A DNA stretch of 22,154 nt, taken from positions 1 through 22,154 of the IMG/VR virus record IMGVR_UViG_3300047629_000005. One strand, 5' to 3'. The notes under the pieces were generated by a model. That model did no database searches. It was given only the letters and a program-made list of their open reading frames with translations, and had not been told where the DNA came from. The stretch comes from a virus. Shown here one piece after another: positions 2,380 through 22,154 of the stretch. Each line of letters starts with the position of its first letter. Within the stretch, counting starts at the first letter, position 1. The translations under genes and the position numbers were made by a program.

Positions 2380-2566
2380 AAATCCAATTTTAAATGTTAT
2401 GGATACATTTGCTAGAGCTTATTCAATTAATAAGGATTTGAATATTTCTGATGAAACGCCACTTAGAGATATATTACCTGGAGTTTGGCCTACATTCGGA
2501 GAATTAAGAGAACTTTATATTGTAGCTAGCTTAATGGGTTGGACAACAAACTACACAAAGGAATAA
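2360..2566 (+). CDS. Small protein A of a twin-start pair, unknown
   Basis: A 68-residue soluble protein starting MSQSIPKNP, not recognised. I chose the ATG at 2360 rather than the in-frame GTG at 2351 because AAGGAT (2345-2350) sits nine bases before the ATG but is directly against the GTG. It overlaps the end of the nuclease gene by 20 bases. The first 16 bases of the coding sequence are identical to those of the next gene. The rest of the protein (FARAYSINKDL, PTFGELRELYIVASLMGW) looks helical and differs from its neighbour. Confidence 0.6.
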   Translation: MSQSIPKNPILNVMDTFARAYSINKDLNISDETPLRDILPGVWPTFGELRELYIVASLMGWTTNYTKE

Positions 2567-2571
2567 AAATA

Positions 2572-2587
2572 ATGTCTCAATCAATAC
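2572..2587 (+). repeat. 16-base direct repeat at translation start, copy 2
   Basis: Exact second copy of ATGTCTCAATCAATAC (first copy 2360-2375), again placed at an ATG with AAAGGA upstream. Sequence similarity fades within a few codons after the repeat. Confidence 0.8.
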
Positions 2588-2799
2588 TTGAAAAAGTTAA
2601 ACAAAATATAGCTGAAAAATTCGAGCCTGCTATAGATTTCAAGGCTCCATATGCTAAAATAATACTAGATATGGCTGCCAAAGCTACATTGCAAATGCTA
2701 CTTGATTATTACGATCATAAAGACGCAGAATGTGAAGCTTGTAATGCTTCTACACCAAATTTACAAATGATGATAGAAGACGCTTTAAAAAATTCATGA
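2572..2799 (+). CDS. Small protein B of a twin-start pair, unknown
   Basis: A 75-residue soluble, probably helical protein beginning MSQSILEKVKQNIAEKF and containing a Cys pair (CEAC, about residues 49-52); function unknown. The start at 2572 is preferred over an in-frame upstream ATG at 2539 because AAAGGA (2557-2562) lies nine bases before it, after the stop of the preceding gene at 2566. Its stop TGA overlaps the helicase ATG (ATGA at 2796-2799), so translation is coupled to the helicase; a helicase-associated role is possible but only inferred from position. Confidence 0.65.
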   Translation: MSQSILEKVKQNIAEKFEPAIDFKAPYAKIILDMAAKATLQMLLDYYDHKDAECEACNASTPNLQMMIEDALKNS

Positions 2800-4376
2800 T
2801 CCAACTCCGACCATATCAAGAGGATGGTATAGAAGCCATCTGGAATTACTTTTGTAAAGACAAAGGTAATCCCTTGATTGCGTGGCCAACTGGAGTAGGT
2901 AAATCAATTATCCCTGCCATCTTCATTCAAAGAGTAATGCATCATTGGGCAAGTCAAAAATTCTTACTTCTAACTCACGTATCGGAACTAATCAAACAAA
3001 ATGCTGAAGTTCTTCAATACGTATGGCCAAATGCTCCATTAGGTATCTTCAGTGCAGGTTTAAAGAAAAAGCAGCCATTCTTTCCGATAGTATATGCAGG
3101 TATTCAATCGGCTATTAAAGACCCTGCCCGATTTGGTCATAGAGATATTATCTTCATTGATGAAGCTCATTTGATTAGCGAAGATGAAAGCTCGCAATAT
3201 CTTACTTTTCTCGCTACAATGAAACTAATAAATCCAAATATTAAAATTATTGGTATGACCGCTACCCCTTTCCGTATGGGAATGGGAATGCTTACAGACG
3301 GTGGATTATTTACAGATATAATTCACGATCTGACTGGAGTTGATGAATTCAATAGACTTATAGCCGAAGGCTATCTTTCTCCCCTCATTCCTAAGCGAAC
3401 TAAAGTAGAACTTGATATTACTAATGTGGGTATGTCGCGAGGTGAATTTATTGGTAGTCAATTACAAAGTGCAGTAGATAAAGCTGAAATAACTTATGCA
3501 GGTTTGCGCGAAGCTGTTGAGCTTGGACGTGATAGAAAGTCGTGGTTAATATTTTCATCAGGTGTTGAACATGCTGACCATATTGCTGCTATGCTTACAA
3601 GTTTCGGTATTGATTGCGTGGCTGTTCATTCTAAAAAATCTGCTGATCATAATGAACAGACAATCAAACATTTTAAGTCAAACTCACTTCGGGCAATCGT
3701 TAATTACAGCAAGCTTACGACGGGTTTTAACCACCCTAATATTGACCTTATTTGTGATTTTCGGCCAACTATGGCTATTCCTCTACACATTCAAAAACTC
3801 GGAAGGGGAACTAGACCATCTGATGGGAAAAGTAATTGCTTGGTTCTGGATTTTGCTAGGAACATTCCTAGGCTAGGACCTATCAACGATCCTGTTATCC
3901 CTCGTAAGCGAGGTGAAAGCGGTGGAGATGTTCCAATTAAAATTTGCGAAGCTTGCGGAACCTATAACCACGCTAGAGTAAGATACTGTACTAATTGCGG
4001 CAATGAATTTGAATTTAAAATTAAGATAGTCGCTAAAGCCGGCACAACAGAAATCATTAGATCGGATATTCCGGTAGTGGAGTATTTTGATGTTGATTAT
4101 GCGATTTATGCAAAAAAGCAAAAAGACCCCGCGAAGTCTGCCTATATTCAAGCTAGTTATTTTTGCGGCCTTCGCAAATTTAATGAGTTTGTGTTTCCAG
4201 AAGCCGCAAAATATGGTAAGCATTTATTTCATCAATGGTGGATGCAGCGTCATTCTTCAAATCCTCCTGTCTCTACTGATGAAGCTTTAAAGTATGTTTC
4301 CGAATTAAGATGTCCTAAGCGAATTCGCGTTTGGGTGAATAAAAAATACCCGGAGGTATTAAGTGCAGAATACTAA
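2796..4376 (+). CDS. SF2 DEAD/DEAH-box helicase with zinc ribbon
   Basis: ATP-dependent nucleic-acid helicase of superfamily 2, likely to unwind DNA in phage replication or recombination. Motifs in order: Q-like RPYQ (5-8), Walker A PTGVGKS (31-37), Ia LTHVSEL (59-65), Walker B DEAH (122-125), motif III TATP (155-158), motif V LTTGFN (307-312), motif VI QKLGRGTRP (333-341). A four-cysteine zinc ribbon follows (C384, C387, C398, C401), then about 120 residues without a recognised domain that include a WW-containing segment (FHQWWMQRH). The 526-residue length fits phage helicases of this type. It is coupled to the preceding gene by ATGA and overlaps the next gene by 14 bases. All key residues are present, so the enzyme should be active. 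It is not a DnaB-type replicative helicase. Confidence 0.9.
   Translation: MIQLRPYQEDGIEAIWNYFCKDKGNPLIAWPTGVGKSIIPAIFIQRVMHHWASQKFLLLTHVSELIKQNAEVLQYVWPNAPLGIFSAGLKKKQPFFPIVYAGIQSAIKDPARFGHRDIIFIDEAHLISEDESSQYLTFLATMKLINPNIKIIGMTATPFRMGMGMLTDGGLFTDIIHDLTGVDEFNRLIAEGYLSPLIPKRTKVELDITNVGMSRGEFIGSQLQSAVDKAEITYAGLREAVELGRDRKSWLIFSSGVEHADHIAAMLTSFGIDCVAVHSKKSADHNEQTIKHFKSNSLRAIVNYSKLTTGFNHPNIDLICDFRPTMAIPLHIQKLGRGTRPSDGKSNCLVLDFARNIPRLGPINDPVIPRKRGESGGDVPIKICEACGTYNHARVRYCTNCGNEFEFKIKIVAKAGTTEIIRSDIPVVEYFDVDYAIYAKKQKDPAKSAYIQASYFCGLRKFNEFVFPEAAKYGKHLFHQWWMQRHSSNPPVSTDEALKYVSELRCPKRIRVWVNKKYPEVLSAEY
4352..4365 (+). promoter_or_regulatory. Strong ribosome binding site that fixes a GTG start
   Basis: GGAGGT at 4352-4357 lies five bases before the GTG at 4363, inside the end of the helicase gene. 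It is among the strongest Shine-Dalgarno sequences in the window and supports the GTG as the true start of the zinc-knuckle protein. Confidence 0.65.
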
Positions 4377-4587
4377 TGCAGAACAAATTCTAACTAATCC
4401 ATGTAGAGAGAGCGCTTTAAAGCAGCTAGCTGATTTAATGGTAAAGCATTGGCTCGAAATAGGACTATTCCAAACTTGTTTAAATTGTTCTGATTGGAGC
4501 ATTGATAGATGTACAAAATTTAATCAACGTCCACCTGATAGAGTTATAGTTTGTGGTTGTGAATATCATTCTGATATTCCATTTTAA
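4363..4587 (+). CDS. Small zinc-knuckle protein related to the nuclease C-terminal module
   Basis: A 74-residue protein: a short helical N-terminal half, then C39-x2-C42, C50, x15, C66-x2-H69, ending in SDIPF. The cysteine/histidine pattern should hold a zinc ion. The same C-x15-C-x2-H spacing and the same GCEYH end occur in the C-terminal module of the Cas4-like nuclease in this window, so the two proteins share a module, probably for DNA or protein binding. Small proteins of this type occur in other phage replication blocks. It starts at GTG behind GGAGGT and overlaps the helicase gene by 14 bases. The exact role is unknown. Confidence 0.7.
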   Translation: MQNTNAEQILTNPCRESALKQLADLMVKHWLEIGLFQTCLNCSDWSIDRCTKFNQRPPDRVIVCGCEYHSDIPF

Positions 4588-4600
4588 GAAAATAAAAAAA

Positions 4601-4876
4601 ATGATTATTATCAAAGTTGAATTGCATTCTGCCGTCACTGGTAAAGTACAAGAACTTGCACGAATGCATATTATAAATCAAGGTTCTACTACAATTAAAA
4701 ATCCAAATTTTGGAGATTATCAAGTACAAACTTTTAGAGGTAGAAGTAAAGAAATCCTCGATAAGCTTACTATTTCAAAAGCAACAATTATTCATAATTG
4801 GCGAAGAAATGATTATCACGTTTGGAATTTAATTTGTAAAGCTCTTACTAAAATGGGCTATACACAAGGTCATTAA
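4601..4876 (+). CDS. Small protein of unknown function in the replication block
   Basis: A 91-residue basic soluble protein starting MIIIKVELHSAVTGKV. The N-terminal half looks like beta strands (VELHSAVTGKVQEL, DYQVQTFRGR), and a helical C-terminal half ends ICKALTKMGYTQGH. I do not recognise the family. I prefer the ATG at 4601 to an in-frame GTG at 4553, which would lie deep inside the preceding gene; the chosen ATG has only a weak A-rich leader. The next small gene starts one base after the stop, so it is part of the same transcript. Confidence 0.6.
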   Translation: MIIIKVELHSAVTGKVQELARMHIINQGSTTIKNPNFGDYQVQTFRGRSKEILDKLTISKATIIHNWRRNDYHVWNLICKALTKMGYTQGH

Positions 4877-4877
4877 A

Positions 4878-5036
4878 ATGCCAGCCGGTATCTTTCTTCG
4901 AAAAGATAAAAACGAGAAACGAAATCGAAATATAATAGATTTATATCTGACAGGAAGTACCTATGATGAAATTGCTTATAGTTTAAATATAACTAGAAAT
5001 GTTGTAGCTGGATTAATTCATAGATACAAAGAATAG
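4878..5036 (+). CDS. GcrA-like miniature helix-turn-helix protein
   Basis: A 52-residue protein. Residues 18-50 form a helix-turn-helix with the hallmark of the GcrA N-terminal domain: a helix (IIDLYLTG), then YDEIAYSLN, then ITRNVVAGLIHRYK, matching the GcrA pattern of IA..LG..TRNAVIGK.HR as I remember it. GcrA is a cell-cycle transcription factor of alphaproteobacteria that binds methylated DNA and contacts sigma-70. This product has only the DNA-binding part; the sigma-interacting C-terminal domain is absent. It could therefore compete for GcrA sites or regulate phage genes. It begins with ATG one base after the preceding stop and ends 32 bases before the sliding-clamp gene. A generic sigma-region-4-like or resolvase-like helix-turn-helix is the alternative reading. 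Confidence 0.6.
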   Translation: MPAGIFLRKDKNEKRNRNIIDLYLTGSTYDEIAYSLNITRNVVAGLIHRYKE

Positions 5037-5068
5037 AAATTTAAGAGTAGCATCTATATATCATAATT

Positions 5069-6064
5069 ATGTCTAGACCTAAAAAACGAACTACCGAAGC
5101 TCCTGTGGCATCTAATACATTTTTAGATGCGTTACGCTTTTGCGGTATGATTACTAAGAACGAAGGTCCAATCAACGAAACTCATATTCATCTAGGAGCA
5201 CATTGGGCAACTGCGTTTAACGGTACAATAGCTGCTGGCCATCCTATCGGAGAAGATATCTTCGCTTGCCCACAAGCTAAAACTATCATTGAAGCCATTA
5301 GTAAATGCAACGAACAGATTTCATTTACTCAATTAGATAGTAATCGGCTATCAATCAAATCGGGTAAATTTAAAGCTATAGTTCCTTGCATTGATCCGAT
5401 GCTATTAAATGTCGCAATACCTGATCAACCAATAGCCTTAATAGATGATAGATTTAAAGAAGGTTTATCAATTGTAGGCATTTTAGCAAATGAACACTCG
5501 CAATATGTACATTTAGCTTCTATATTGATGAACGGTCAATCTCTATACTCGACTACTGGTAAAGTTATTTTTGAATATTGGCACGGAGTAGATTTACCTT
5601 ATGGGATATCTTTACCAAAAGCTCTTGTAGACCCGTTAACTAAAGTAAACAAAAAGCTAGCTCGATTTGGATTTAGCCGTACAAGCGTCACATTCTATTT
5701 TGAGGATCGAAGCTGGATACGAAGTCAATTGTATCTAGAGCAATGGCCAGATATAGCCTCTATATTAAATAAACCGTCGAATGCATGGCCGGTGTCGGCT
5801 GACTTCTGGAATGGGCTAGAGGCGGTAGCGCCGTTCACTGATAGCTTTATTTACTTCGACGCTGGCTTAATGCGTAGTCACGACAACGCCGCTCAAGGGG
5901 CCTCCTATGAGGTTCCAGGCTTGCCTAAAGGTCTTGCTTTTCCTGCCAAGCAGCTAGCTATGATCCGACCTTATGCAAAGTCGATAGATTTTTTAGCGAA
6001 GGATTGTTTAATGTTCTTTGGCGATCGAATTAGAGGTGTCATAGCAGGGATAAATAGAACATGA
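5069..6064 (+). CDS. Probable DNA sliding clamp (beta-clamp-like processivity factor)
   Basis: A 331-residue protein that I read as a diverged DnaN/beta-clamp fold. Support: three similar-sized parts of about 110 residues, and the typical run of a helix (TFLDALRFCGMI), strands ending in WATAFNG, and LSIKSGKFKAIVPC, which is like the clamp motif (LSV.SG.F.A.VP). A second repeat has VHLASILMNGQSLYSTTGK, like the clamp T-D/N-G turn. It would encircle DNA and tether the family B polymerase encoded 450 bases downstream. No ring-opening partner (clamp loader) is seen in this window. The start has no clear Shine-Dalgarno. A structural check is needed because sequence identity to bacterial clamps is low. 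Confidence 0.6.
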   Translation: MSRPKKRTTEAPVASNTFLDALRFCGMITKNEGPINETHIHLGAHWATAFNGTIAAGHPIGEDIFACPQAKTIIEAISKCNEQISFTQLDSNRLSIKSGKFKAIVPCIDPMLLNVAIPDQPIALIDDRFKEGLSIVGILANEHSQYVHLASILMNGQSLYSTTGKVIFEYWHGVDLPYGISLPKALVDPLTKVNKKLARFGFSRTSVTFYFEDRSWIRSQLYLEQWPDIASILNKPSNAWPVSADFWNGLEAVAPFTDSFIYFDAGLMRSHDNAAQGASYEVPGLPKGLAFPAKQLAMIRPYAKSIDFLAKDCLMFFGDRIRGVIAGINRT

Positions 6065-6240
6065 GCCATAATAATTATAAATATCATTTAGAAATGATAA
6101 TAGAAGAATTAAGAAATAAAGTATTTGTTAATTCTACTAGAATATGTTTATATTTAGATAGAACCGAGCATCAATTTTTACAAGAGATTTTGAAAAGTGA
6201 GCTTGCTTCTGTTAATCGAACTTTGGATAATAAACAATGA
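6061..6240 (+). CDS. Small helical protein, unknown
   Basis: A 59-residue, probably all-helical charged protein (YHLEMIIEELRNK, then RTEHQFLQEILKSELASV). The start overlaps the clamp gene stop by four bases (ATGA at 6061-6064), and its own stop overlaps the next ATG in the same way (6237-6240). These two stop-start couplings are the main evidence that it is translated. The function is not recognised. Its place between clamp and polymerase genes suggests a replication accessory. Confidence 0.55.
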   Translation: MSHNNYKYHLEMIIEELRNKVFVNSTRICLYLDRTEHQFLQEILKSELASVNRTLDNKQ

Positions 6241-6518
6241 GACTTAAATGTATAGGTGGAAAATCAGACGGTAAATTTATAGATGTTAATGATAATGAAA
6301 GAGTAGGAAGTGTAATTAAAGTACCTAATGTAGAAAATAATTATATTTACGGTAGAAGCAATATAAATGATACAATCAAAATTACAGACGAGTTTTATAT
6401 AATAGAAACATTAAAATATAATACACAATCTAGAATATTGTCTTGGTTTTTTCTTAAACCTGTAAATACCAATTCAGAAATTGCTATAATAGAAGCTATC
6501 GACAAAGTTTTTAAATGA
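6237..6518 (+). CDS. Small beta-rich protein, unknown
   Basis: A 93-residue protein beginning MRLKCIGGKSDGKFIDV, a start often seen in small phage proteins of unknown function. Predicted beta strands continue through VIKVPNVENNYIYG and the FYIIETLKY segment, and a short helix ends it. It has no membrane segment. It is coupled on both sides by ATGA overlaps, with the 59-residue gene before it and the DNA polymerase gene after it (6515-6518). I cannot assign a function. Confidence 0.65.
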   Translation: MRLKCIGGKSDGKFIDVNDNERVGSVIKVPNVENNYIYGRSNINDTIKITDEFYIIETLKYNTQSRILSWFFLKPVNTNSEIAIIEAIDKVFK

Positions 6519-8461
6519 ACGAAGCTCTAAGCCTTTCCAAATCTATCGAGCTTAAGCCTTACGTTCCACGTAAGCCTATTTTTATTGAGTACATGAGCGA
6601 TGAAGAAATTGCATTCGGCAAAGGTGGAGTGCTCATTCTCGATACCGAAACATATATAAACTATTTTCTGCTTCAATTCCTCGATATCAAGACTGGTAAG
6701 ATAATTAAATTTGAATGTAGGCAAGATGAAGATATCTATTTTAATGAGAAAAAACTAAAATGGATAATGTACAATTATCATACGATAGGCTTTAACTCGA
6801 TTAAATATGATCTTTGTCTAATTTGGTTTGCAATTCTTTATCAAAACAACGAGCTTATCAAAAAGCTATCTGATGAAATCATTTTTTCAAATACTTGGCC
6901 AAAACAATTAGAGCACGATTTTAGTTTTAAGATTGAACAAACTTCTCATATTGATCTTATTGAAGTATGTCCGTTGCGAGGATCGCTTAAGCTCTATGGA
7001 GCACGGCTACATGCAAAACGTATTCAAGACTTGCCTTTCAACGTTATGCGAACATTGGATAGCTGGCAATTTCCTATTGTGGCTGATTATAATATTAGTG
7101 ATTTGCTGGCCACTCAAATACTTTTCAATAATTTAACAGAACAGCTTCAATTACGTTTTGATTTAACAAAAGAATACAAACAAGACTTAATGAGTAAATC
7201 AGATGCTCAAATTGCTGAAGCTGTTATATCTAGTGAGATTAAGCGTCTTACTGGTAAATGGCCGCAAAAGCCTAAAATTACTTCCGACATTCATTTCAAT
7301 TATAAAGCTCCTGAATTTATTAAGTTCAAAACTCCATTAATGCAGAGAATTTTAGAAAAAGTATGTTCATATAAATATAGTCTCCTCGAAAGTGGGAGAC
7401 TTGATAAAAGTGAAATCGAAAATATTAATATTCAAATCGGTGCAAATATTTATCGTATGGGTAGCGGAGGATTGCATTCCTCTGAAAAATGCATAGGAAT
7501 AAAGGCAACAAATGAATATAGGCTTTTGGATAGAGATGTTGCTAGCTATTATCCTGCTATTGTGCTTAATTGCGGGCTTTTTCCTAGTCATGTTGGAGAG
7601 ATTTTTTTACAAGTATACAGAAGCTTGGTTGAAAGACGAATTTCCGCAAAACGAGCAAAAAATATAGCTATCTCAGAATGTCTTAAAATTTGTATCAATG
7701 GAACATTCGGTAAAACAGGTTCCCCTTATTCAGTTCTGTATGCTCCAGAAATGATGATACAAATTACCGTTACTGGACAACTTGCTTTATTAATGCTAAT
7801 CGAACAACTGGAGCTACAAAATATTCAAGTTGTTAGTGCTAATACCGACGGAATTCTTACATATTGCCACGTATCAAAAGTAGAACAATATTTAGATATT
7901 ATTAAAAAATGGGAAGATAATACAGGCTTTGTAACAGAAGAAACAGAATATGACGCAATTTACTCGCGAGATGTTAACGCTTACATTGCTATTAAAAAAA
8001 ATGGCAAAGGTATCAAAGGTAAAAACCTCTATTATGATCCTTGGCGAGGTAAGACCGCTAGAGATGGATATTGGAGATTTCAAAAAAATCCATCAACACA
8101 AATTTGTATTGAAGCCTGCGAACGATTTATAATAGAAAAAATCTCAATCGAGCAAACCATAAAAGAAAGTAAAGATATAACTAAATTTGTAGCTGTAAAA
8201 AATGTCAACGGAGGTGCCCACAAAGAAGGTAACTATCTTGGTAAAGTAATACGATGGTATTATGCCAAAAATCAATTTGGAACTATAAATTATATAACTT
8301 CTGGTAATAAAGTTCCTGATAGCGAGGGAGCTAAGCCTTGTATGGATTTACCGGATGAATTTCCAGACGATATTGATTATAATTGGTATGTAAAAAGAAG
8401 TGTTGACATGCTATATGATATGGGATACTATAGGAGGCAAGAGCAGATTAAATTTTTTTAG
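6515..8461 (+). CDS. Family B DNA polymerase with 3'-5' exonuclease
   Basis: The phage replicative DNA polymerase, 648 residues. The N-terminal proofreading domain has ExoI D43-x-E45 (ILDTET), ExoII N94...D99 (GFNSIKYD) and ExoIII Y192-x3-D196. The polymerase domain has motif A D341-x2-S-Y-Y-P (DVASYYPAI), motif B K391...N395-G-x-F-G (KICINGTFGKTG) and motif C NTDG with D445. In motif C the usual first Asp is Asn, a form I associate with short phage family B enzymes; the catalytic D341 and D445 remain. There is no obvious terminal-protein region, so priming is undefined. It is coupled to the preceding gene by ATGA. It ends in a run of T and A bases that also leads into the next gene's ribosome site. 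Confidence 0.9.
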   Translation: MNEALSLSKSIELKPYVPRKPIFIEYMSDEEIAFGKGGVLILDTETYINYFLLQFLDIKTGKIIKFECRQDEDIYFNEKKLKWIMYNYHTIGFNSIKYDLCLIWFAILYQNNELIKKLSDEIIFSNTWPKQLEHDFSFKIEQTSHIDLIEVCPLRGSLKLYGARLHAKRIQDLPFNVMRTLDSWQFPIVADYNISDLLATQILFNNLTEQLQLRFDLTKEYKQDLMSKSDAQIAEAVISSEIKRLTGKWPQKPKITSDIHFNYKAPEFIKFKTPLMQRILEKVCSYKYSLLESGRLDKSEIENINIQIGANIYRMGSGGLHSSEKCIGIKATNEYRLLDRDVASYYPAIVLNCGLFPSHVGEIFLQVYRSLVERRISAKRAKNIAISECLKICINGTFGKTGSPYSVLYAPEMMIQITVTGQLALLMLIEQLELQNIQVVSANTDGILTYCHVSKVEQYLDIIKKWEDNTGFVTEETEYDAIYSRDVNAYIAIKKNGKGIKGKNLYYDPWRGKTARDGYWRFQKNPSTQICIEACERFIIEKISIEQTIKESKDITKFVAVKNVNGGAHKEGNYLGKVIRWYYAKNQFGTINYITSGNKVPDSEGAKPCMDLPDEFPDDIDYNWYVKRSVDMLYDMGYYRRQEQIKFF

Positions 8462-8471
8462 GAAACATAAA

Positions 8472-8579
8472 ATGATCAATCTTTTATGGATTATTCCTGG
8501 ATTTGTTGCAATATTTTTGATTGTATCTATAATTGTAGGTTATTCTAATTCGGAAAGCTTTAAAGATAATGCTTGGTAA
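8472..8579 (+). CDS. 35-residue single-span membrane peptide
   Basis: MINLLWIIPGFVAIFLIV begins a frame with one strong hydrophobic helix (about residues 3-26) and a short polar tail (SNSESFKDNAW). AGGAA at 8460-8464 lies seven bases before the ATG, and the gene follows the polymerase stop by ten bases. Small one-span peptides like this occur in phages as inhibitors of host envelope functions, holins or superinfection factors, but nothing here tells which. The good ribosome site and the fit between stop codons make translation likely. Confidence 0.5.
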   Translation: MINLLWIIPGFVAIFLIVSIIVGYSNSESFKDNAW

Positions 8580-8605
8580 GTTGCATTAATGGAGGATGAA
8601 CGAGG

Positions 8606-8815
8606 ATGAGAGAAAAAGAGAAATCCAGAAAAGGAAAATATCGAGGCGAGTTGCGGTCCCGTTTCAACATCCTCGAACAGTGGGACGGTAAGAAGTGGAG
8701 AGAGCCGCCAGAAGTAGGCGTTTATGGCGGTGCGGTCACAAAAATAAACTTTTCTGTCGAAAATTCGCTACTCGATTGCGGCGACGCAGTAGATAGAGCG
8801 TTTCGTCCGCGTTAA
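8606..8815 (+). CDS. Small basic protein in a G+C-rich segment, unknown
   Basis: A 69-residue basic protein starting MREKEKSRKGKYRGELRSRF, with a tryptophan-containing middle (LEQWDGKKWREPPEV) and an Arg-rich end. It is not recognised. GGAGG at 8591-8595 lies ten bases upstream, and the leader has an imperfect tandem GAGGATGA repeat giving a second ATG at 8596 in another frame (31 codons only). The base composition is about half G+C by hand count, against about one third in the polymerase gene, which suggests a recent arrival or a different constraint. It is the last rightward gene before the convergent junction. It could also be a chance frame inside a noncoding control region. Confidence 0.45.
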   Translation: MREKEKSRKGKYRGELRSRFNILEQWDGKKWREPPEVGVYGGAVTKINFSVENSLLDCGDAVDRAFRPR

Positions 8816-8831
8816 CGTGTCGAAAATGCAA

Positions 8832-8911
8832 TGTAGAGCCACGGCATTACCCGTTTGGCTCTACAAAGGCCGGTGCAAAGCACCCGTACCACTCCCTTTC
8901 GGGAGGCTTTT
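8832..8911. terminator. Triple-hairpin convergent terminator region or small structured RNA
   Basis: Three hairpins follow one another. The first is a perfect 10-bp stem, TGTAGAGCCA (8832-8841) with TGGCTCTACA (8856-8865). Its 14-base loop can form three more pairs (CGG with CCG). The second is GGTGC-AAA-GCACC (8872-8884). The third is CTCCC-TTTC-GGGAG (8892-8905), then GCTTTT (8906-8911). On the rightward strand the last hairpin and T run fit a rho-independent terminator. On the leftward strand the third hairpin has a GAAA loop, and the first is followed by TTGCATTTT. The region lies between the last rightward gene and the last leftward gene, so stopping both transcripts is the simplest role; a discrete noncoding RNA is the alternative. 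Confidence 0.55.
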
Positions 8912-9287
8912 AGGCCCCACCAGGAGCCACATAACAGTAAACTTGTCCAGCACTACCAATAAATATAATTCCGTGCCCTGTAGGATTACCCTTATCCCAT
9001 TTCATTTTAATATTAGGAACGTCAATTTTAGTTCCATTTGTAATTATATTTTTACCATCTGTTATAATTGCAATGTAATGATCGCCATTAACTTCAAATG
9101 TATCTGCCTCAAATGCATCAGCTTCACCGCAGCATGACATATACGGATTATCAGGTTGCATTAAAGATTGAAACCATTCGCGTATAGCAATAGGCTTATC
9201 GGACCACGAAGGCGAAGCGCGACCAAAAGCAATTTTAACTTCAATAATCAAAGCTATTAAAGATAATACAATTATAAGTTTGCGCAT
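8910..9287 (-). CDS. Secreted conserved protein with paired cysteines, unknown
   Basis: A 125-residue protein with an N-terminal signal peptide (MRKLIIVLSLIALIIEVKIA, likely cut near AFG-RA), so it should act in the periplasm or beyond. The mature part has C52-C53 (SCCGEADAF), a beta segment (HYIAIITDGKN), GNPTGH and a C118 near the end (GQVYCYVAPGG); the cysteines may form a disulfide. I associate this arrangement with secreted proteins of unknown function in Rhizobiales and their phages, from memory only. It is the last leftward gene; its stop lies in the junction hairpin region. Its ATG overlaps the preceding stop by one base, so it is coupled to the NlpC/P60-like gene and may share its envelope target. 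Confidence 0.65.
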   Translation of the reverse strand: MRKLIIVLSLIALIIEVKIAFGRASPSWSDKPIAIREWFQSLMQPDNPYMSCCGEADAFEADTFEVNGDHYIAIITDGKNIITNGTKIDVPNIKMKWDKGNPTGHGIIFIGSAGQVYCYVAPGGA

Positions 9288-9616
9288 TATAGCATCCTAA
9301 AAGCTATAGCTCCTGTAACCGATCTTTCACGCTCGCGCACCATATGACCATCATTGCCGCTTTTAACGATCCAACCGCCATCAGAAGCTTTTCCGGTTAT
9401 ATATCCGACATGATGCGACCAAACGACTATAGCGCCAACTTGCGGAGACACGGCGCGACCCACATTAACCCAATTGCGAGCAAGATTAAGCTCCGATCCA
9501 CCAGCACCAGGGAACCATTGACGCATTTGCCAGCCACACCATGCCGAAGGACGATTATCGTGCGCTTCTACAGAAGTAGAAATTAAAGCAAGTGATAATA
9601 AAATCAATTTATTCAT
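9287..9616 (-). CDS. Secreted NlpC/P60-like (CHAP-like) protein
   Basis: A 109-residue protein with a signal peptide (MNKLILLSLALISTSVEA, cut before HDNRP). The mature domain is a compact papain-like fold by pattern: C27 in AWCGWQMRQW, a central NLARNWVNVG, then VGAIVVWSHHVGYITG with H68/H69, and a polar residue after a strand (IVKSGND). This C-then-H order with the VGAIVVW-HHVG strand is typical of NlpC/P60 and CHAP peptidoglycan amidases/endopeptidases. It would reach the periplasm by Sec export and could cleave peptidoglycan peptides. It is separate from the GH24 endolysin encoded 1.5 kb upstream in the same transcription direction. It overlaps the coiled-coil gene by ATGA (9613-9616). Related small proteins without proven activity exist, so the enzyme role is inferred. 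Confidence 0.6.
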   Translation of the reverse strand: MNKLILLSLALISTSVEAHDNRPSAWCGWQMRQWFPGAGGSELNLARNWVNVGRAVSPQVGAIVVWSHHVGYITGKASDGGWIVKSGNDGHMVRERERSVTGAIAFRML

Positions 9617-10110
9617 GCTTTTGTTTTCCTCACTGGATATTCTGTAGGCAATGTACCATCTTTAGCCGCATTTCTTAATTCAATATTCCATATTCTATCA
9701 TAAGCTTGTTTAAGTCCGTCGCCTATACTCTTAGCTATTTCTGCAAACCTTTCATCATCATGTCTACCATGATATTCATACTTTTCATTTAATGTATCAA
9801 AACATTTAGTTATTAAAGCGTCTGTTTTGCTCAATTCTCTTTGTAAGATAGCTGCCCATTCGTGTCTATTTTGTTTATCTTGTTCGTCAACATAAAGCCT
9901 TAATTTATGTAATTCTTCTGTAATTTTAAAATTTGCTATATTAATAGCAGCATTTGCTTTAACAGTTGATAAATCAATTGAGCTATCAATAGATTGATCT
10001 CGTTTGCCAAATCTCCAACCTATAGATAATAAGCCAAGAACGGCCGTCACAATTCCGCTTAAAGCACCTGTAATAATTTCTACCCATAATGGATTTTGGT
10101 CTTGTATCAC
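9613..10110 (-). CDS. Membrane-anchored coiled-coil protein (possible spanin-like or lysis accessory)
   Basis: A 165-residue protein starting with GTG. One membrane helix (about residues 9-32, WVEIITGALSGIVTAVLGLL) is followed by a basic stop-transfer (RFGKRD) and a long charged helical stretch (about 40-150) likely to form a coiled coil. This layout resembles inner-membrane spanins and other phage lysis accessories, but no lipoprotein partner is encoded beside it, so the spanin call is tentative. It follows the terminator after the beta-barrel gene and is coupled by ATGA to the NlpC/P60-like gene. The ribosome site is weak (GGAATTATTAAA before GTG). It must be read by read-through of the terminator or from an unseen promoter. 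Confidence 0.5.
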   Translation of the reverse strand: MIQDQNPLWVEIITGALSGIVTAVLGLLSIGWRFGKRDQSIDSSIDLSTVKANAAINIANFKITEELHKLRLYVDEQDKQNRHEWAAILQRELSKTDALITKCFDTLNEKYEYHGRHDDERFAEIAKSIGDGLKQAYDRIWNIELRNAAKDGTLPTEYPVRKTKA

Positions 10111-10121
10111 TTTAATAATTC

Positions 10122-10153
10122 CAAAGAAAAGGGGATAGTTAATTCTATCCCCT
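10122..10153 (-). terminator. Rho-independent terminator after the outer-membrane protein gene
   Basis: AGGGGATAG (10130-10138) pairs with CTATCCCCT (10145-10153) around a six-base loop. On the minus strand the stem is followed by TTTTCTTT (complement of 10123-10130). It lies just after the beta-barrel gene stop. The other strand also has a T-rich tract (TAATTTTTCTT), so it may work both ways. Confidence 0.85.
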
Positions 10154-10161
10154 AATTTTTC

Positions 10162-10842
10162 TTAGAAACCAAAATGTCTATTGAGAGAAATACCTACCCA
10201 ATTTTCATCTTTCTGAGTAGTCGTAAGACCTGCCGAGCTACCAGCATTACCACCCTGATTGTAAGTATAATGCAGATAATCGGCATTAAGTGTCCAGGAA
10301 GAATGTCCTGTAGCATCAGCAGCAAGCAAAGCCTCAACACCAACACCTGTACCTAACGCAGGCTGGCCGTGTCGCTTTTCTTCATTGACATTAATATAAG
10401 GTGTCATCAATGAATTTAACAACTGCGTTGGAAGGGAAGGTGTAGTTCCTTGAGTTGTAACTGTACCAAAAATACCAGCAAGCGAATATCCAACTCTGAT
10501 ACCGCCACCGTAAGAAGTCTTATCAGCAATGCTATTGCTAACCGAACTTAAAGAAATATCATAATTGACATTTACATATGGAGCAAAATAGATACTGTTA
10601 TTAAAATATTCGTATCCACCCTGCATTCCAATAGCTAAACCATTCTGAGTAAGTCCACTAACTCCAGAACCGATAATGTCGATATTACCACCACCATTAC
10701 CAACTGTCATACCGATAAAACCGCCGATACAGCTAGTGACAGAACAAATAGGAGTAGTAAAAACAGGAGCCTTTAAAGCTAAATTAGCGGCTGAAGCAGA
10801 AGAAGCGAGCAGCATAAGTGCAAATACTGACAATTTACGCAT
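10162..10842 (-). CDS. Outer-membrane beta-barrel protein (Omp25/opacity-like), moron-like
   Basis: A 226-residue exported protein. A signal peptide (MRKLSVFALMLLASSASA, cut before ANLALKAPV) is followed by alternating polar/hydrophobic strands rich in Gly, Asn, Tyr and Thr (GLAIGMQGGYEYF, YFAPYVNVNYDISL, SYGGGIRVGYSLAG). It ends RHFGF, with the C-terminal Phe that outer-membrane barrels use for assembly. The order of strands resembles eight-strand Omp25/opacity proteins of alphaproteobacteria. I chose the start at 10842 because AAGGGGA lies six bases before it; an upstream ATG at 10908 would put 22 residues ahead of the signal peptide. Made in an infected cell or lysogen it would sit in the host outer membrane, perhaps blocking other phages or altering the surface. 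A palindromic promoter region and its own terminator flank it. Confidence 0.75.
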   Translation of the reverse strand: MRKLSVFALMLLASSASAANLALKAPVFTTPICSVTSCIGGFIGMTVGNGGGNIDIIGSGVSGLTQNGLAIGMQGGYEYFNNSIYFAPYVNVNYDISLSSVSNSIADKTSYGGGIRVGYSLAGIFGTVTTQGTTPSLPTQLLNSLMTPYINVNEEKRHGQPALGTGVGVEALLAADATGHSSWTLNADYLHYTYNQGGNAGSSAGLTTTQKDENWVGISLNRHFGF

Positions 10843-10871
10843 GATAAATCCCCTTGATTGATTGCCCACAT

Positions 10872-10916
10872 TTAGGCTTAAGCACTTAAGCATAAAATTC
10901 TGTGTCAAAACCGCAA
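10872..10916 (-). promoter_or_regulatory. Putative promoter with palindromic operator upstream of the beta-barrel gene
   Basis: The region holds GCTTAAG-CA-CTTAAGC (10876-10891), a perfect 7-bp inverted repeat with a two-base centre; the outer bases 10872-10895 extend it to about 10 of 11 pairs. On the minus strand TTGCGG (10916-10911) and TATGCT (10894-10889) are 16 bases apart and could be -35 and -10 elements, so a repressor bound to the palindrome would cover the -10. A second -35-like TTGACA is at 10908-10903 without a good partner. The beta-barrel ATG is about 45 bases downstream. Confidence 0.4.
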
Positions 10917-10930
10917 CAGTAAGGAATTAT

Positions 10931-11170
10931 TTATCCCTGATTTTTGGAACCTGGGGGCGACCAATGCCAGAAGAAATGGACGGCTAAACCTCCAAAAACC
11001 ATACCGTAAATAACTGCGATTAATGGCCATCCCTCGTATAAATCCCAAGTATAACGCGATAGGGTAACTCCACCAGTACCTATAGCAATTCCTTCAAGCA
11101 CTCCGAAAGAAGCCATAACTATCAATAACCAAGCGGACCAGATGGCATACCACTTTGTTTGTTTGTTCAT
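10931..11170 (-). CDS. Two-span small membrane protein (holin or holin-like)
   Basis: A 79-residue protein with two hydrophobic helices (about residues 8-28 and 47-68), a short Ser/Thr/Arg/Trp loop and a tail FFWHWSPPG. I associate this pattern (SAW...LEGIAI...GGLAVHFFWHW) with small membrane proteins next to endolysin genes in phages of alphaproteobacteria. The size and two spans fit a class II holin or antiholin. It overlaps the GH24 endolysin gene by ATGA (11167-11170), a classic holin-endolysin coupling although here it is downstream. A second holin candidate is on the other side of the endolysin, so one of the two could be an antiholin or have another role. Confidence 0.55.
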   Translation of the reverse strand: MNKQTKWYAIWSAWLLIVMASFGVLEGIAIGTGGVTLSRYTWDLYEGWPLIAVIYGMVFGGLAVHFFWHWSPPGSKNQG

Positions 11171-12016: not shown

Positions 12017-15000
12017 TCACATTTTAAATTGAAAACCAATGTTATTTAATGCATTTGTATTAAAATTATTTGCATGAGAATTGTCGCTACCTTCGTTACA
12101 ACTTATTGTATGTAATCCAAGTTGCGGAGCATATAAAATACTTTTTGCTTGTGTCATAGTACCGGACAAGCTAATAGCTAAAGGTAATGTTTGACCAATT
12201 GTATTTGTAGCATCTAATCCTAAATTTACAGAAGCAGAGTCACCATTAGCTAATACACCAGTAGTTACATTTAATGTTGCTATAATTCCATCTTCGTTAT
12301 TACCACTAACAAAAGTTATTTGATTTCCAGCACTAGCCCTACATTCTCTTGCTGTAGAAGATGTATAAGTATATGAACTACCAGTATCGACAACAGTTGT
12401 CGTTATATTAACTCTATTATAATAATTCCACAAATTAAGTGAAGCCGCTACACCACCGCTTCCAGAACCACCATAAATCCAATCTACTGAAGCACTTCCA
12501 TTGCTACAAAACGAACCCACATAAGTACCTTGATTTGTTGTTGGTCCATTTGTAATTGCTACATTATTAACTTGAAATCCATTAATTTGATTAAGTGCCG
12601 TACCAGCACTCCGAGTAGTTGTATTTGTCCAAGCCGGTCCGCGCGTGGCTCTAATTGTTCCGCTATCATTCCAAACAAATACATCATAGCAAGAATTATT
12701 AGCTACGGCTGCTGGACTTTTAGTAGTATCTGTAGTCGCTTGACTTAAAGTTCCTCCTGTATCTTTGCAAACAAAACGAGTACCATCCCAAATAGGAACT
12801 TGTTGACCTAAATATGGAGTATAATAAACTGTAGTTTGTGCCGAATGAGTAGCTGTCATAACAGGAGTACCACTAACTAAACTCAAACGACCTTGAGGAT
12901 TTAAAGTGCAATTATAAATTTGATTTAAATTATAATCTCCAGCATTAGCTGTAACCGCTCCAGTTCTGGTAAATACACTCGAAACGGCACCACCGCAAGC
13001 TAAGCCTGCATCAACCAAATTACCGCTTGCATCAATACTGACACAATCGTTATTTGTAAGTGTTCCACTTGTTGTTGCTAATTGATTAGTATTACCAGAA
13101 ATTGTAGAAATGGCAGTTCCGTTAATTTGTAAAATATTTCCAGCACCGGCAGTATTAAAAGTTTTATGAGTTAGTGTATCGGTTGTCGCTCTACCTACAA
13201 GAGTATCTGTACTTGTGGGTAAAGTTAAAGTACCTGTATTTATAATTGTTCCAATTACCGGAGAAGTTAAAGTTTTGTTAGTAAGAGTATCAGTAGTAGC
13301 GCGACCTACAATCGTATCACTACCAGCTTGTAAAGTCATGGTACCACCGCCTGAAGTTTGAGCGGCTATTGTTGTAGTTCCTCCAACGGAGCCTGCAAGA
13401 TTTAAGCTACCTTGTACAGATGCAGCAATGCCAAGTGTAAGAGCACCTGAAGAAATTGTAGCATTTGAATTACCGCTAACGGCTGTTCCTGTAGAACCAT
13501 AATAAGTTAATTGACCACTTGTGCCACTATTAACAGTGCCGCCGCCTCCACCAGTAGTACAAGCACCACCAGCATCAATAAAATTTAAATTTGCGTCGAT
13601 GCTAACACAATGCCCACTTGTTAAAACACCTGCAACAGTTCCAACCTTAGCTGTATTACCACCGATAGCTGTAATTGAAGTTCCGTTAATTTTTAATACA
13701 TTACCGGTTCCGGCAGTATCGTATGTTTTATTTGTTAATGTGTCAGTAGTGGTGCGACCTATATAAGTATCAGTTCCTTGAAATGTAATTGTTGTAGCGT
13801 CTGTACCAGCTAATGTAAGACTATTGTTAGCAGTTAATGTTTTTCCATCTAAAATAGTTAAAATAGAACCTGTAGCAGGCTGAGTTAAAGTTACTTTATT
13901 AATTGTTGTAGCTGTAGCGGCTCCTAAAACTGGAGTTACTAATGTAGGAGTGTTAGCAAATACTGCTGATCCTGTTCCAGTTTCATCAGATAAAACACTA
14001 GCCAATTGAACAGATGTTGTTGAAGCAAATTGAGATAAAGGGTTTGTTGTAATTCCGCAAGTCGCACAAGCAATATTTCCGTTAGAAGTAGTAATAGCTA
14101 ATGGAGAGGTAGCTGTTACAGCAGGTGTGCCGCTTGTATTACCCCATGTAATTGTAGGAGTACCTGCTGTTGGTTGAACAGTTTGAACGACATTGCCGCT
14201 TCCTGATCCAACAATTGATAATTGTCCTGTTGTACCAAAAGCACCTATTGTTAAAGTCGGATTAACCCATGTTAAATTAGGTGAACCGCCAAATAATCCG
14301 CCATTATTAAATTGAATATCTGTACTTCCGCCACCAGGATTACCACCACCCCCACCACCACCGGTAACAGAAACGATATTACCAGTACAAGACAAACCGG
14401 CACCGCAAGCTATATCTCCGGTCATTCCTCCAAGCGAAGTAACTCCGCTAGCAATCGCAGAATTGCTATCAGGTAATACTTTAATTATATAATTTAATGT
14501 GAGTGTAGGTTGTAAAAGCGAAAACGCAGTTTGTGTTATATTTCCATTAAGCTGAATTGCAGTAACGGAACCTGTTGGTGTATAGCTTGGAATATTAATA
14601 TTAACATGATTTGTTGTAGTTGGACCTACACCAGAACCGCCTCCAGGTCTATCGTTCGAATTGCCTAAATCAACATTAGCTTCATTTGAAGCAACTGTTC
14701 CAGGAGCATACGTATTTGTTGCTGTAAACGTTCCTGTTAAAGCTACGTTAGGCAAATTTGATCTAATCAAAGTTTGAGTTTGACTACCGCAAATAGCTCC
14801 TGTTGCAGTAGGATTAGAGCAAGACGCAGAAGTTAAATTTGAAGAAGCTGTTCCGCCCATATTAGGACGGCCAGCAACAACATTTCCTCTTAAATCTGGT
14901 AATGTAAATGTACTAGAACCATTTCCGTTTCCAAAAGGAAAGAATGTAGCAGAAGTATTTAAATTAACAGTTGAAGGATTGGATAATGTAACAGTTGAAC

Positions 15001-15649
15001 TTGTTTTAGAAATAACTGTTGTACCGGGAATAACACAAGATACTTCAACCGGAGCACCAATAGGAATTTGTGTTGTGTCAGCAATGCTTGTAAGAGTATT
15101 GCTCGAATTAGTACAAACGACATTAGAGATTTGAGTAATGGCTGTTAATAAAACAGAATAAGTTAATCTCGATATTTGTTGCCCGTAAGCAAACATATAT
15201 TGATTAGGGGCCTGAATACCTGCCCAAGGCTTAACTGTTCCAACGAGATCACCATCCCCTGTAGATGTAATAGAATTAGTTCCAGGAGCGGCCGTAACAG
15301 CATCCCAGATTAAATTATTGCTGGCATCCTTGACGATTTGCCGATAGGTTCCTTGACCGTAGATGCCGCCAGAACCACCAGGAGGCTTACCGCCTGCATC
15401 TAATGTAATCGGATTAGTCCAAGGTGTCACTTCTCCACTATCTTGCCAAACAGGCTTAAGATTGGTTGTAGACGGATAATAAAAACCAACAGAACCACCT
15501 GAAAGCGGATTACCATTATTATCAAAATACTGCTGAAGTGCATTAGGAAGTAATGCAGCAGTTTGAGCAAAAACAAACGTACAGCTAATAGCATAAATAA
15601 AGGAACTATAAATGAAAGATGCTATAACTCTGTTTATCTTTTGGGCCAT
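12017..15649 (-). CDS. Large tail-collar/tail-fibre protein with signal peptide
   Basis: A 1210-residue receptor-binding or tail protein. Residues 1-28 are a clear Sec signal peptide (hydrophobic core, cut at VFA-QT), odd for a virion protein. The mature start (TAALLPNALQQYFDNNGNPL) and GGSVGFYYPSTTNLKPVW form the N-terminal module I know from such phage proteins. A tail-collar-like domain follows (VGTVKPWAGIQAPNQYMFAYG, then FTLPDLRGNVVAGRP). The rest is Gly/Thr/Ser-rich with repeated TTDTLTNKT units, a poly-Gly stretch (13th-15th tenths of the leftward gene start), and a beta-rich C-terminus ending QFKM. No chaperone or peptidase domain is visible at the end. It precedes the lysis genes, the usual place for a tail fibre. 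The ribosome site is modest (GGAAA before GCCAA-ATG). Confidence 0.8.
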   Translation of the reverse strand: MAQKINRVIASFIYSSFIYAISCTFVFAQTAALLPNALQQYFDNNGNPLSGGSVGFYYPSTTNLKPVWQDSGEVTPWTNPITLDAGGKPPGGSGGIYGQGTYRQIVKDASNNLIWDAVTAAPGTNSITSTGDGDLVGTVKPWAGIQAPNQYMFAYGQQISRLTYSVLLTAITQISNVVCTNSSNTLTSIADTTQIPIGAPVEVSCVIPGTTVISKTSSTVTLSNPSTVNLNTSATFFPFGNGNGSSTFTLPDLRGNVVAGRPNMGGTASSNLTSASCSNPTATGAICGSQTQTLIRSNLPNVALTGTFTATNTYAPGTVASNEANVDLGNSNDRPGGGSGVGPTTTNHVNINIPSYTPTGSVTAIQLNGNITQTAFSLLQPTLTLNYIIKVLPDSNSAIASGVTSLGGMTGDIACGAGLSCTGNIVSVTGGGGGGGNPGGGSTDIQFNNGGLFGGSPNLTWVNPTLTIGAFGTTGQLSIVGSGSGNVVQTVQPTAGTPTITWGNTSGTPAVTATSPLAITTSNGNIACATCGITTNPLSQFASTTSVQLASVLSDETGTGSAVFANTPTLVTPVLGAATATTINKVTLTQPATGSILTILDGKTLTANNSLTLAGTDATTITFQGTDTYIGRTTTDTLTNKTYDTAGTGNVLKINGTSITAIGGNTAKVGTVAGVLTSGHCVSIDANLNFIDAGGACTTGGGGGTVNSGTSGQLTYYGSTGTAVSGNSNATISSGALTLGIAASVQGSLNLAGSVGGTTTIAAQTSGGGTMTLQAGSDTIVGRATTDTLTNKTLTSPVIGTIINTGTLTLPTSTDTLVGRATTDTLTHKTFNTAGAGNILQINGTAISTISGNTNQLATTSGTLTNNDCVSIDASGNLVDAGLACGGAVSSVFTRTGAVTANAGDYNLNQIYNCTLNPQGRLSLVSGTPVMTATHSAQTTVYYTPYLGQQVPIWDGTRFVCKDTGGTLSQATTDTTKSPAAVANNSCYDVFVWNDSGTIRATRGPAWTNTTTRSAGTALNQINGFQVNNVAITNGPTTNQGTYVGSFCSNGSASVDWIYGGSGSGGVAASLNLWNYYNRVNITTTVVDTGSSYTYTSSTARECRASAGNQITFVSGNNEDGIIATLNVTTGVLANGDSASVNLGLDATNTIGQTLPLAISLSGTMTQAKSILYAPQLGLHTISCNEGSDNSHANNFNTNALNNIGFQFKM
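12995..13192 (-). repeat. Internal 66-residue repeat of the tail protein, copy 2
   Basis: It encodes a unit running from RATTDTLTHKT through ILQINGTAIS and CVSIDASGNLVDAGLAC. It matches the unit at 13559-13756, has the same length (198 bases) and many identical positions, but the DNA has diverged at third positions, so the duplication is not recent. Confidence 0.7.
13559..13756 (-). repeat. Internal 66-residue repeat of the tail protein, copy 1
   Basis: It encodes RTTTDTLTNKT through VLKINGTSIT and CVSIDANLNFIDAGGAC. It is the N-terminal member of the pair with 12995-13192; further partial copies of TTDTLTNKT lie between them. Each unit carries cysteines at the same two places. Confidence 0.7.
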
Positions 15650-21044: not shown

Positions 21045-22154
21045 TAGCTTCTAGCCGGCACAACTTCTGAAAATCCACCATTCAAAGCAGTCTTAATAGG
21101 TTCCGACCATTCAAGCTTAAATATTCTATCGCGAGCCATTCCTAAACGTGTCCATTGGATCGCAGTTAGAAATTCGCCACCACGACCCATCTCTTGTTGG
21201 ACCGGAAAACCATACGAAACGCCGCGATTGTCGGACCAGCTTAGACTTACCATTGGTTCTGTCAATATCGTAGGGTCTTGCTCCCCTACTTCCATATCAG
21301 CGTCGAATGTTTTATAAGTTACACGATCCATATTATTAAGCATATGAAGGAAAGTTTTACGTCTTAATATTGGACCTGTATCATCAGTATATGTCTCAAG
21401 GCTTAATGTATAAAGCTTTCCATTCTCCCAATCGCCAATTATATTTTGCTCATTGTAATACATTGCGCAATTAGCACGACTTCTATTAAGCGAGCCATCA
21501 TCTGTATTATACCAAGCCCATCGAAACCATTGTTTAACTTTAAGTGAATAAAGCCAAGTCTCATTTGCAGTAGGAAAAGCTAAAACATAAAATGCATGGG
21601 AACCGATTTGAAAGAAGAAGCCTATAGCATCATCCGTTGTTTGATAATTATTAAATCTATCAACTAAATAAGGTGTAGAGATTTCATCAACTTCATAAGC
21701 CGTTCCCATAACGACTATATTTTTACCAGCTTTATCCTGCATCAACCAAATACCAATAACATCTGTATTAGCGCACGAGTACTTAGCTATACAACCATGT
21801 TCAATGTAGGCACCTTGTACACGTTGATAAAAGAAATCAGCCGCACCTGTACCTACCCACACTTCAGTAGTTAAAGCTCCGATCAACCAAAGTTCATCGT
21901 GAATACTCAATATTGCAACAATCGGATCAGAAGCACCAGACTTAGCAGCAATATCAAGAGGATCGAAAGCTAATTGAGTTCCTGTTAAAGTATAAGTAAA
22001 TCCAGCACCTCCACCTATACTAGCGGAATTGGCCGAAAGAACATCTCCTACTTGATAGTTCTTACCACCATCTCCAATATCAACGGCCGTTACAGCATTT
22101 CCTGTAACGGTTATCGTAGCTAATGCTCCTGTTCCAGAACCTCCTGTAAGTGCA
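21044..22154 (-). CDS. P22 gp10-like packaged-DNA stabilisation / tail accessory protein (5' end outside window)
   Basis: The minus frame stays open to the right edge, so 370 residues are visible and the protein is incomplete at its start; a TTG at 21910 is not the true start. The stretch around it (SDPIVAILSIHDELWLIG, then EVWVGTGAADFFYQRVQG and YIEHGCIAKYS) is the DP.V...H...W..G...TE.W...GAA..F.RVQG..IE.GC pattern of P22 gp10-like proteins that close the head-tail channel. More strands follow (WFRWAWYNTDDG, IIGDWENGKLYTL) and it ends in VVPARS. The visible N-terminal 60 residues are a Gly/Thr-rich module (ATITVTGNAVTAV...NYQVGDVL) that I know as a mobile beta-module of phage tail proteins, here inserted ahead of the gp10 core. 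It supports a podovirus tail. Confidence 0.75.
   Translation of the reverse strand, partial: ALTGGSGTGALATITVTGNAVTAVDIGDGGKNYQVGDVLSANSASIGGGAGFTYTLTGTQLAFDPLDIAAKSGASDPIVAILSIHDELWLIGALTTEVWVGTGAADFFYQRVQGAYIEHGCIAKYSCANTDVIGIWLMQDKAGKNIVVMGTAYEVDEISTPYLVDRFNNYQTTDDAIGFFFQIGSHAFYVLAFPTANETWLYSLKVKQWFRWAWYNTDDGSLNRSRANCAMYYNEQNIIGDWENGKLYTLSLETYTDDTGPILRRKTFLHMLNNMDRVTYKTFDADMEVGEQDPTILTEPMVSLSWSDNRGVSYGFPVQQEMGRGGEFLTAIQWTRLGMARDRIFKLEWSEPIKTALNGGFSEVVPARS

Follow-up and report, generated by a model that had tools for sequence, protein, structure and literature searches.

Phage lambda encodes a small outer-membrane barrel, Lom, among its late genes. Lysogens express the lom gene (PMC7067206). 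Llp of phage T5 shows that outer-membrane proteins serve lytic phages against rebinding; it is a periplasmic lipoprotein and not a barrel (PMC9586334). The o-spanins are also lipoproteins (PMC9636201). We analysed a whole IMG/VR virus record of 22,154 bases (hereafter the window), which carries a putative barrel gene among its late genes.

This gene resembles each of these systems in part. It shares with lom the coding of a small outer-membrane barrel by a phage, and Ail is among the matches to its predicted fold; it differs in having no sequence match to the Lom family, no supported promoter and no lysogeny genes found. Llp, as an outer-membrane protein of a lytic phage, would be a possible analogue if the barrel masks a receptor, but the present protein is predicted to be a barrel and not a lipoprotein. 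If the barrel is an outer-membrane lysis factor, its role in the lysis programme would be that of the Rz/Rz1 spanins; here, however, the barrel has no lipobox and the coil of the neighbouring protein is predicted to be cytoplasmic. The OMP_b-brl family (PF13505) has in common with it eight strands, a signal peptide and an aromatic C-terminus, whereas the family described below is phage-borne, lies mostly in lysis modules and has a P-x-LP motif in the long periplasmic turn that joins strands 4 and 5.

Results

Organization of the window

The replication genes of the window lie on the plus strand and the late genes on the minus strand (Table 1). A first-pass annotation had located the barrel gene in the lysis region, and its neighbourhood bears this out: a Phage_lysozyme gene (PF00959) and a CHAP-like gene lie nearby. 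Most neighbouring late genes of this region overlap by 4 bases or abut. The barrel gene, unlike them, is preceded by a gap of 88 nt and followed by one of 51 nt, the latter including the terminator. The 79-aa membrane protein encoded upstream has homologues in three other loci (L002, L064 and L116), each likewise close upstream of a barrel.

Table 1. Features of the window and in-frame fusions found in related loci
Feature	Position	Strand	Evidence or remark
DNA polymerase	6515-8461	+	phrog_1252, E 1e-188
Secreted SCCGEAD protein	8910-9287	-	
Exported CHAP-like putative cell-wall hydrolase	9287-9616	-	PF05257, E 0.003, below cut-off
Small protein after the terminator, with a single membrane helix at its N-terminus and the rest coiled-coil-like	9613-10110	-	
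Intrinsic terminator, hairpin AGGGGATAGAATTAACTATCCCCT then TTTTCTTT	10130-10153	-	sequence, folding, sister alignment
Barrel gene, 226 aa	10162-10842	-	
Codons of periplasmic turn T2 (residues 119-147), P-x-LP motif (P135, L137, P138)	10402-10488	-	29-member alignment
88-nt gap before the barrel gene	10843-10930	-	SD; palindrome 10891-10876; TTGACA 10908-10903
79-aa membrane protein, upstream of the barrel	10931-11170	-	
Endolysin (phage lysozyme)	11167-11667	-	PF00959, E 4e-32; phrog_7 endolysin, E 1e-38
Holin-like membrane protein, 114 aa	11664-12008	-	L116 homologue directly followed by a barrel
Fibre/collar protein	12017-15649	-	
Fusion holin-like/signal/barrel, L145	5638-6534		
Fusion holin-like/signal/barrel, L128	5806-6675		
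Fusion holin-like/signal/barrel, L129	5632-6558		
Fusion holin-like/signal/barrel, L132	5782-6663		
Fusion holin-like/signal/barrel, L137	5647-6639		less sure

The fibre/collar-like protein of the window starts with an apparent Sec signal peptide (MAQKINRVIASFIYSSFIYAISCTFVFAQ-TAALLP), and fibre/collar-like proteins of six other loci also seem to start with one (L002 5833-8928, L057 1042-2982, L053 4023-5927, L061 2796-4880, L034 41-2002 and L069 67-3413). Such a signal is odd on a virion protein assembled in the cytoplasm. Seven consecutive genes of L155 (2412-10484, positions 2412-10484 of the L002 genome) have signal-peptide-like N-termini; fibre-like sequences occur in several of them, and one includes a tail-spike chaperone domain (Peptidase_S74, E 4.5e-11). 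The sister phage L002 appears to export tail-fibre-like proteins. It also encodes, between the fibre and the holin-like gene, a secreted GDSL-lipase-like protein (8930-9652; PF13472 E 9e-5, below cut-off) that is absent from the window. The small secreted SCCGEAD protein, whose motif is strongly conserved, is widespread in metagenomic phages near lysis or tail genes (70 viral loci, L045-L114) and has no match in Pfam or among isolated phages.

A conserved terminator without a supported promoter

The hairpin behind the barrel gene has nine perfect pairs, five of them G-C, and a folding z of -3.0; a 9-bp stem with at least five G-C pairs was absent from 20 simulated 22-kb sequences. The two sisters of the window phage, L002 (58 kb) and L057 (37 kb), have an equally good hairpin at the same place, with a stem that differs in part, GGGGAGGG/CCCTCCCC instead of GGGGATAG/CTATCCCC, and with compensatory changes. 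The terminator that the first-pass annotation had placed right after the barrel stop was therefore recovered and is conserved. Its other side is A-rich, and it may be active in both directions. A second perfect 9-bp hairpin, CCGTTACAGGAAATGCTGTAACGG, lies near the end of the record (22087-22110).

The annotation had also seen a promoter-like pair with a palindrome in the preceding gap. The palindrome, GCTTAAGTGCTTAAGC, exists, and the sisters have other small hairpins in their gaps; the promoter pair was not confirmed. No -10-like hexamer follows the TTGACA at a distance of 16-18 nt, the promoter scan lists no site there, and in the alignment of the three phages this TTGACA is not conserved. 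A TTGAC common to their upstream regions was considered and rejected, as in the alignment the window copy is not homologous. In the whole region the scan, which covers only sigma-70-type consensus, gave 18 promoter-like sites against 17.3 expected. The window gap folds no better than shuffled sequences (z -0.6). An own promoter before the barrel gene is not supported by the sequence. Of the insulation by private signals that had been proposed, the terminator and the gaps remain and the private promoter does not; even these are limited to the phage group of the window.

The sister gaps (L002 10719-10808, L057 4802-4893) contain, beside small hairpins, the motif TTGTGCTTGAC, and that of L002 folds better than shuffles (z -3.0). 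The motif occurs exactly once in each sister genome, before the barrel only, and is therefore not a repeated phage promoter.

The barrel protein

The open reading frame begins with an ATG at 10842, 7 nt downstream of AAGGGG (SD 10855-10850). As first annotated, its product has a signal peptide (MRKLSVFALMLLASSASA-A, residues 1-18/19) and a last residue Phe; the signal is of the signal peptidase I type, without a lipobox Cys. The structure prediction proposed at that stage agrees with a barrel: the AlphaFold2 model has eight strands (39-52, 69-80, 85-95, 109-118, 146-157, 160-175, 181-195 and 210-225), with pLDDT mostly 80-91 in the strand blocks and an overall mean of 69. Among solved structures the best match is NspA (PDB 1p4t; Z 16.7, rmsd 3.1 over 144 residues), followed by the OprF barrel (Z 16.2), OmpA (14-15), PagL (2erv, 13.9) and Ail (3qra, 11.2). 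NspA is thus the closest solved fold, but it is a cellular protein and only 13% identical. From this model, the product is predicted to be an outer-membrane barrel of eight strands. Like OMP_b-brl proteins, it has a signal peptide, eight predicted amphipathic strands and a C-terminal aromatic residue.

Taken alone, the protein has no match in Pfam (E up to 1), PHROGs, NCBIfam, 50,697 phage records or IMG/VR, and a profile search of the sequences of solved structures gave nothing relevant.

A family of phage barrels

Relatives were reached through the neighbouring genes. The conserved SCCGEAD gene led to the 70 viral loci and the endolysin to the syntenic sister L002; iterated profile searches within those loci gave ten barrels, and further scans brought the total to 29 distinct members, window included. 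The 28 relatives belong to viruses that are often otherwise unrelated. Ten records were searched for additional copies, and each of these has one barrel. The members form two main clades, one with the window, L053, L064, L061 and others, the second with L002, L057, L116, L069, L145, L148-L154 and others. One member, L129, is above the curated cut-off of OMP_b-brl (41.8 bits vs 28.7, 1.6e-10); L053, L061 and L064 are just below it, and the window protein itself does not match.

Outside these loci, a collection of 50,697 isolated-phage records gave no match to the four members tried (window, L002, L053 and L116), the genome collection searched with the barrel alignment (A6) and the neighbour alignment (A2) no confirmed relative, and plasmids searched with the L061 barrel none. 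The Ail/Lom family profile matched neither the window protein (E up to 1) nor ten members of the family.

The most conserved residues outside the strands lie in turn T2, between strands 4 and 5, and not in the surface loops. This turn counts 23-36 residues in all 29 members and is proline-rich in most; P135 is the most conserved position of the alignment (4.3 bits). An 8-strand barrel whose two termini are both inside has its strand 4-5 turn on the periplasmic side. The periplasmic turns of NspA are short. Of the surface loops, L1 and L2 span 10-18 residues and L4 shows the lowest conservation. This distribution of conservation favours a putative inward-acting role over surface masking.

A stable slot with an exchanged occupant

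The window, L002 and L057 have in common the DNA polymerase (73-81% identity) and the endolysin (71-82%), and in all three the barrel occupies the same slot and is followed by a similar terminator. However, the window barrel is only 28-32% identical to those of L002 and L057, which belong to the other clade. Its identity to the L053 and L064 barrels is 50-54%, and no relative of the window polymerase is present in the records of these two. The L002 barrel has a GC3 of 0.54; over the 20 kb examined there, the remaining genes range from 0.09 to 0.46. As far as these identities tell, the slot is stable and its barrel is exchanged between phages. No empty site was seen: both close relatives found carry a barrel there.

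An association of the barrel type with that of the tail fibre was considered and, on the three genomes compared, rejected. The fibres of the window and L002 are 71% identical over 920 aa and their barrels 28%; conversely, the L002 and L057 barrels are 75% identical, but the match between the two fibres is confined to the N-terminal ~430 aa.

Association and fusion with holin-like genes

In 19 of the 29 cases the barrel gene comes directly after the gene of a small membrane protein or is fused to it in frame; this membrane protein was called holin-like by inspection of its size and hydrophobicity, no holin family or profile being matched. No holin-like neighbour was recognised for about a third of the members (L033, L138, L149, L153, L154, L147, L130 and others). 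Outside the window group, most barrel genes stand in tight succession with their neighbours or are fused to a holin-like gene.

The two parts of the fusions are joined by a hydrophobic stretch with an AxA-type signal-peptidase site at its end. For three of them, L128 (the same phage as L064; E 5e-19), L129 (2e-7) and L137 (9e-25), the N-terminal part has homologues that stand alone in other loci, and the close relative L053 carries both genes as separate frames. Within L137 there is a GTG with a good ribosome site, so that its fusion may be a mere run-on. The length of the open frame was rejected as evidence on its own, as run-ons of similar length were present in 14 of 70 control genes, open frames upstream being common in GC-rich loci. 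Because long run-ons are that common, only fusions whose N-terminal part is recognisable as a gene were counted.

A simple lipobox scan gave no convincing o-spanin-type lipoprotein close to the barrels, nor a convincing spanin lipoprotein in the 58-kb L002 genome. Lipoproteins were found in about a dozen loci without a barrel and in one or none of those with a barrel, numbers too small to show barrel and lipoprotein as alternatives.

Discussion

The position of the gene, together with the fusions, suggests a role in the exit of the phage from the cell rather than that of a passenger gene for the benefit of the host. We tentatively consider the barrel, which lies in the late lysis region, an outer-membrane factor of the lysis module; among the explanations this is the best guess, though short of an even chance. 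It would be made late, together with the holin and the endolysin, exported by Sec and inserted by BAM. Its conserved periplasmic turn could then let it contribute, as the holin fires, to the outer-membrane step of cell exit, by making the outer membrane or its connection to the wall weaker or by remodelling them. For some relatives, the barrel would be the C-terminal half of a holin-like/signal/barrel polypeptide and be released by signal peptidase. We know of no beta-barrel lysis factor, and it also speaks against this role that the window barrel is not fused to a holin and that a terminator separates it from the next gene. A stronger version, in which the family replaces the spanins, is made along with the holin (in some members as one polypeptide), is freed by signal peptidase and acts from inside via the turn, is unlikely. 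So is, and considerably more so, a spanin-like pair in which the barrel would be the outer-membrane half and the downstream membrane/coiled-coil protein the inner-membrane half. Such a protein adjoins 18 of the barrels examined, two of the coil proteins weakly match Rz-like spanin PHROGs (L064 E 1e-4, L137 E 2e-3), and the shortage of lipoprotein o-spanins near the barrels and in L002 would fit. Yet these Rz matches are weak and coiled-coil-like, the coil protein of the window has none, and the positive-inside rule predicts, for the window as for nearly all relatives, a cytoplasmic coil, which is the opposite of an i-spanin. Because of this charge pattern the coil protein was not called a spanin partner, and its candidacy is weakened by the predicted topology.

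Other explanations place the action of the barrel at the cell surface. In superinfection exclusion or 'lytic conversion', a barrel present in the outer membrane during infection would block or replace the receptor and so keep progeny from adsorbing to infected cells or debris. The surface location, the strong divergence and exchange of the barrel between sisters in one slot, and the precedent of outer-membrane proteins of lytic phages such as T5 Llp (PMC9586334) agree with it, but conservation concentrates on the periplasmic side and the strands and not on a surface feature, and the barrel type does not follow the fibre type in the only three genomes compared, where fibre tips vary in all; we regard it as the main rival, somewhat less probable than the lysis role. 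An enzyme of the PagL type, altering the LPS receptor by lipid-A modification, is extremely improbable. PagL has the same barrel size and is among the fold matches (2erv, Z 13.9), and two members carry an HYS motif on strand 7; in the window, however, HYT stands in its place, most members lack the motif and no Pfam PagL match was obtained, and this candidate was rejected on the lack of conservation. The insulated moron comparable to lambda lom, as initially annotated, would be a gene of lysogenic conversion with its own promoter and terminator, expressed from the prophage and altering the host surface. The terminator and gaps do isolate the gene in three related phages, the GC3 of the L002 barrel, above that of the other genes examined there, is a sign of recent import, and integrases are present in the records of two other family members (L064 and L061). 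Against this, no promoter of sigma-70-type consensus is supported in the gap, the window, the 58-kb L002 and the 37-kb L057 (records that may be incomplete) yielded neither a tyrosine integrase nor a serine resolvase, barrels occur in lysis modules with unrelated backbones, and neither a sister without the gene nor an empty site was found. The moron assignment was thus not upheld, and we consider it quite improbable. The comparison with lom holds in the sense of a small outer-membrane barrel encoded by a phage, not as family membership or expression in lysogens.

Conclusions

On the evidence of the alignments and gene neighbourhoods, we regard the window barrel as a member of a newly recognised phage family that resides in late/lysis regions and is exchanged between phages. 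Outer-membrane barrels of phages are usually filed singly as lom-like or unknown; here, 29 of them form one recognisable family, defined by its periplasmic turn. A lone terminator is no proof of a moron. The genomic slot is fixed, and its barrel is swapped between otherwise unrelated phages. Most of the 29 lie beside holin-like genes and at least four are fused to one, which leads to testable predictions of how phages without recognisable spanins may open or prepare the outer membrane.
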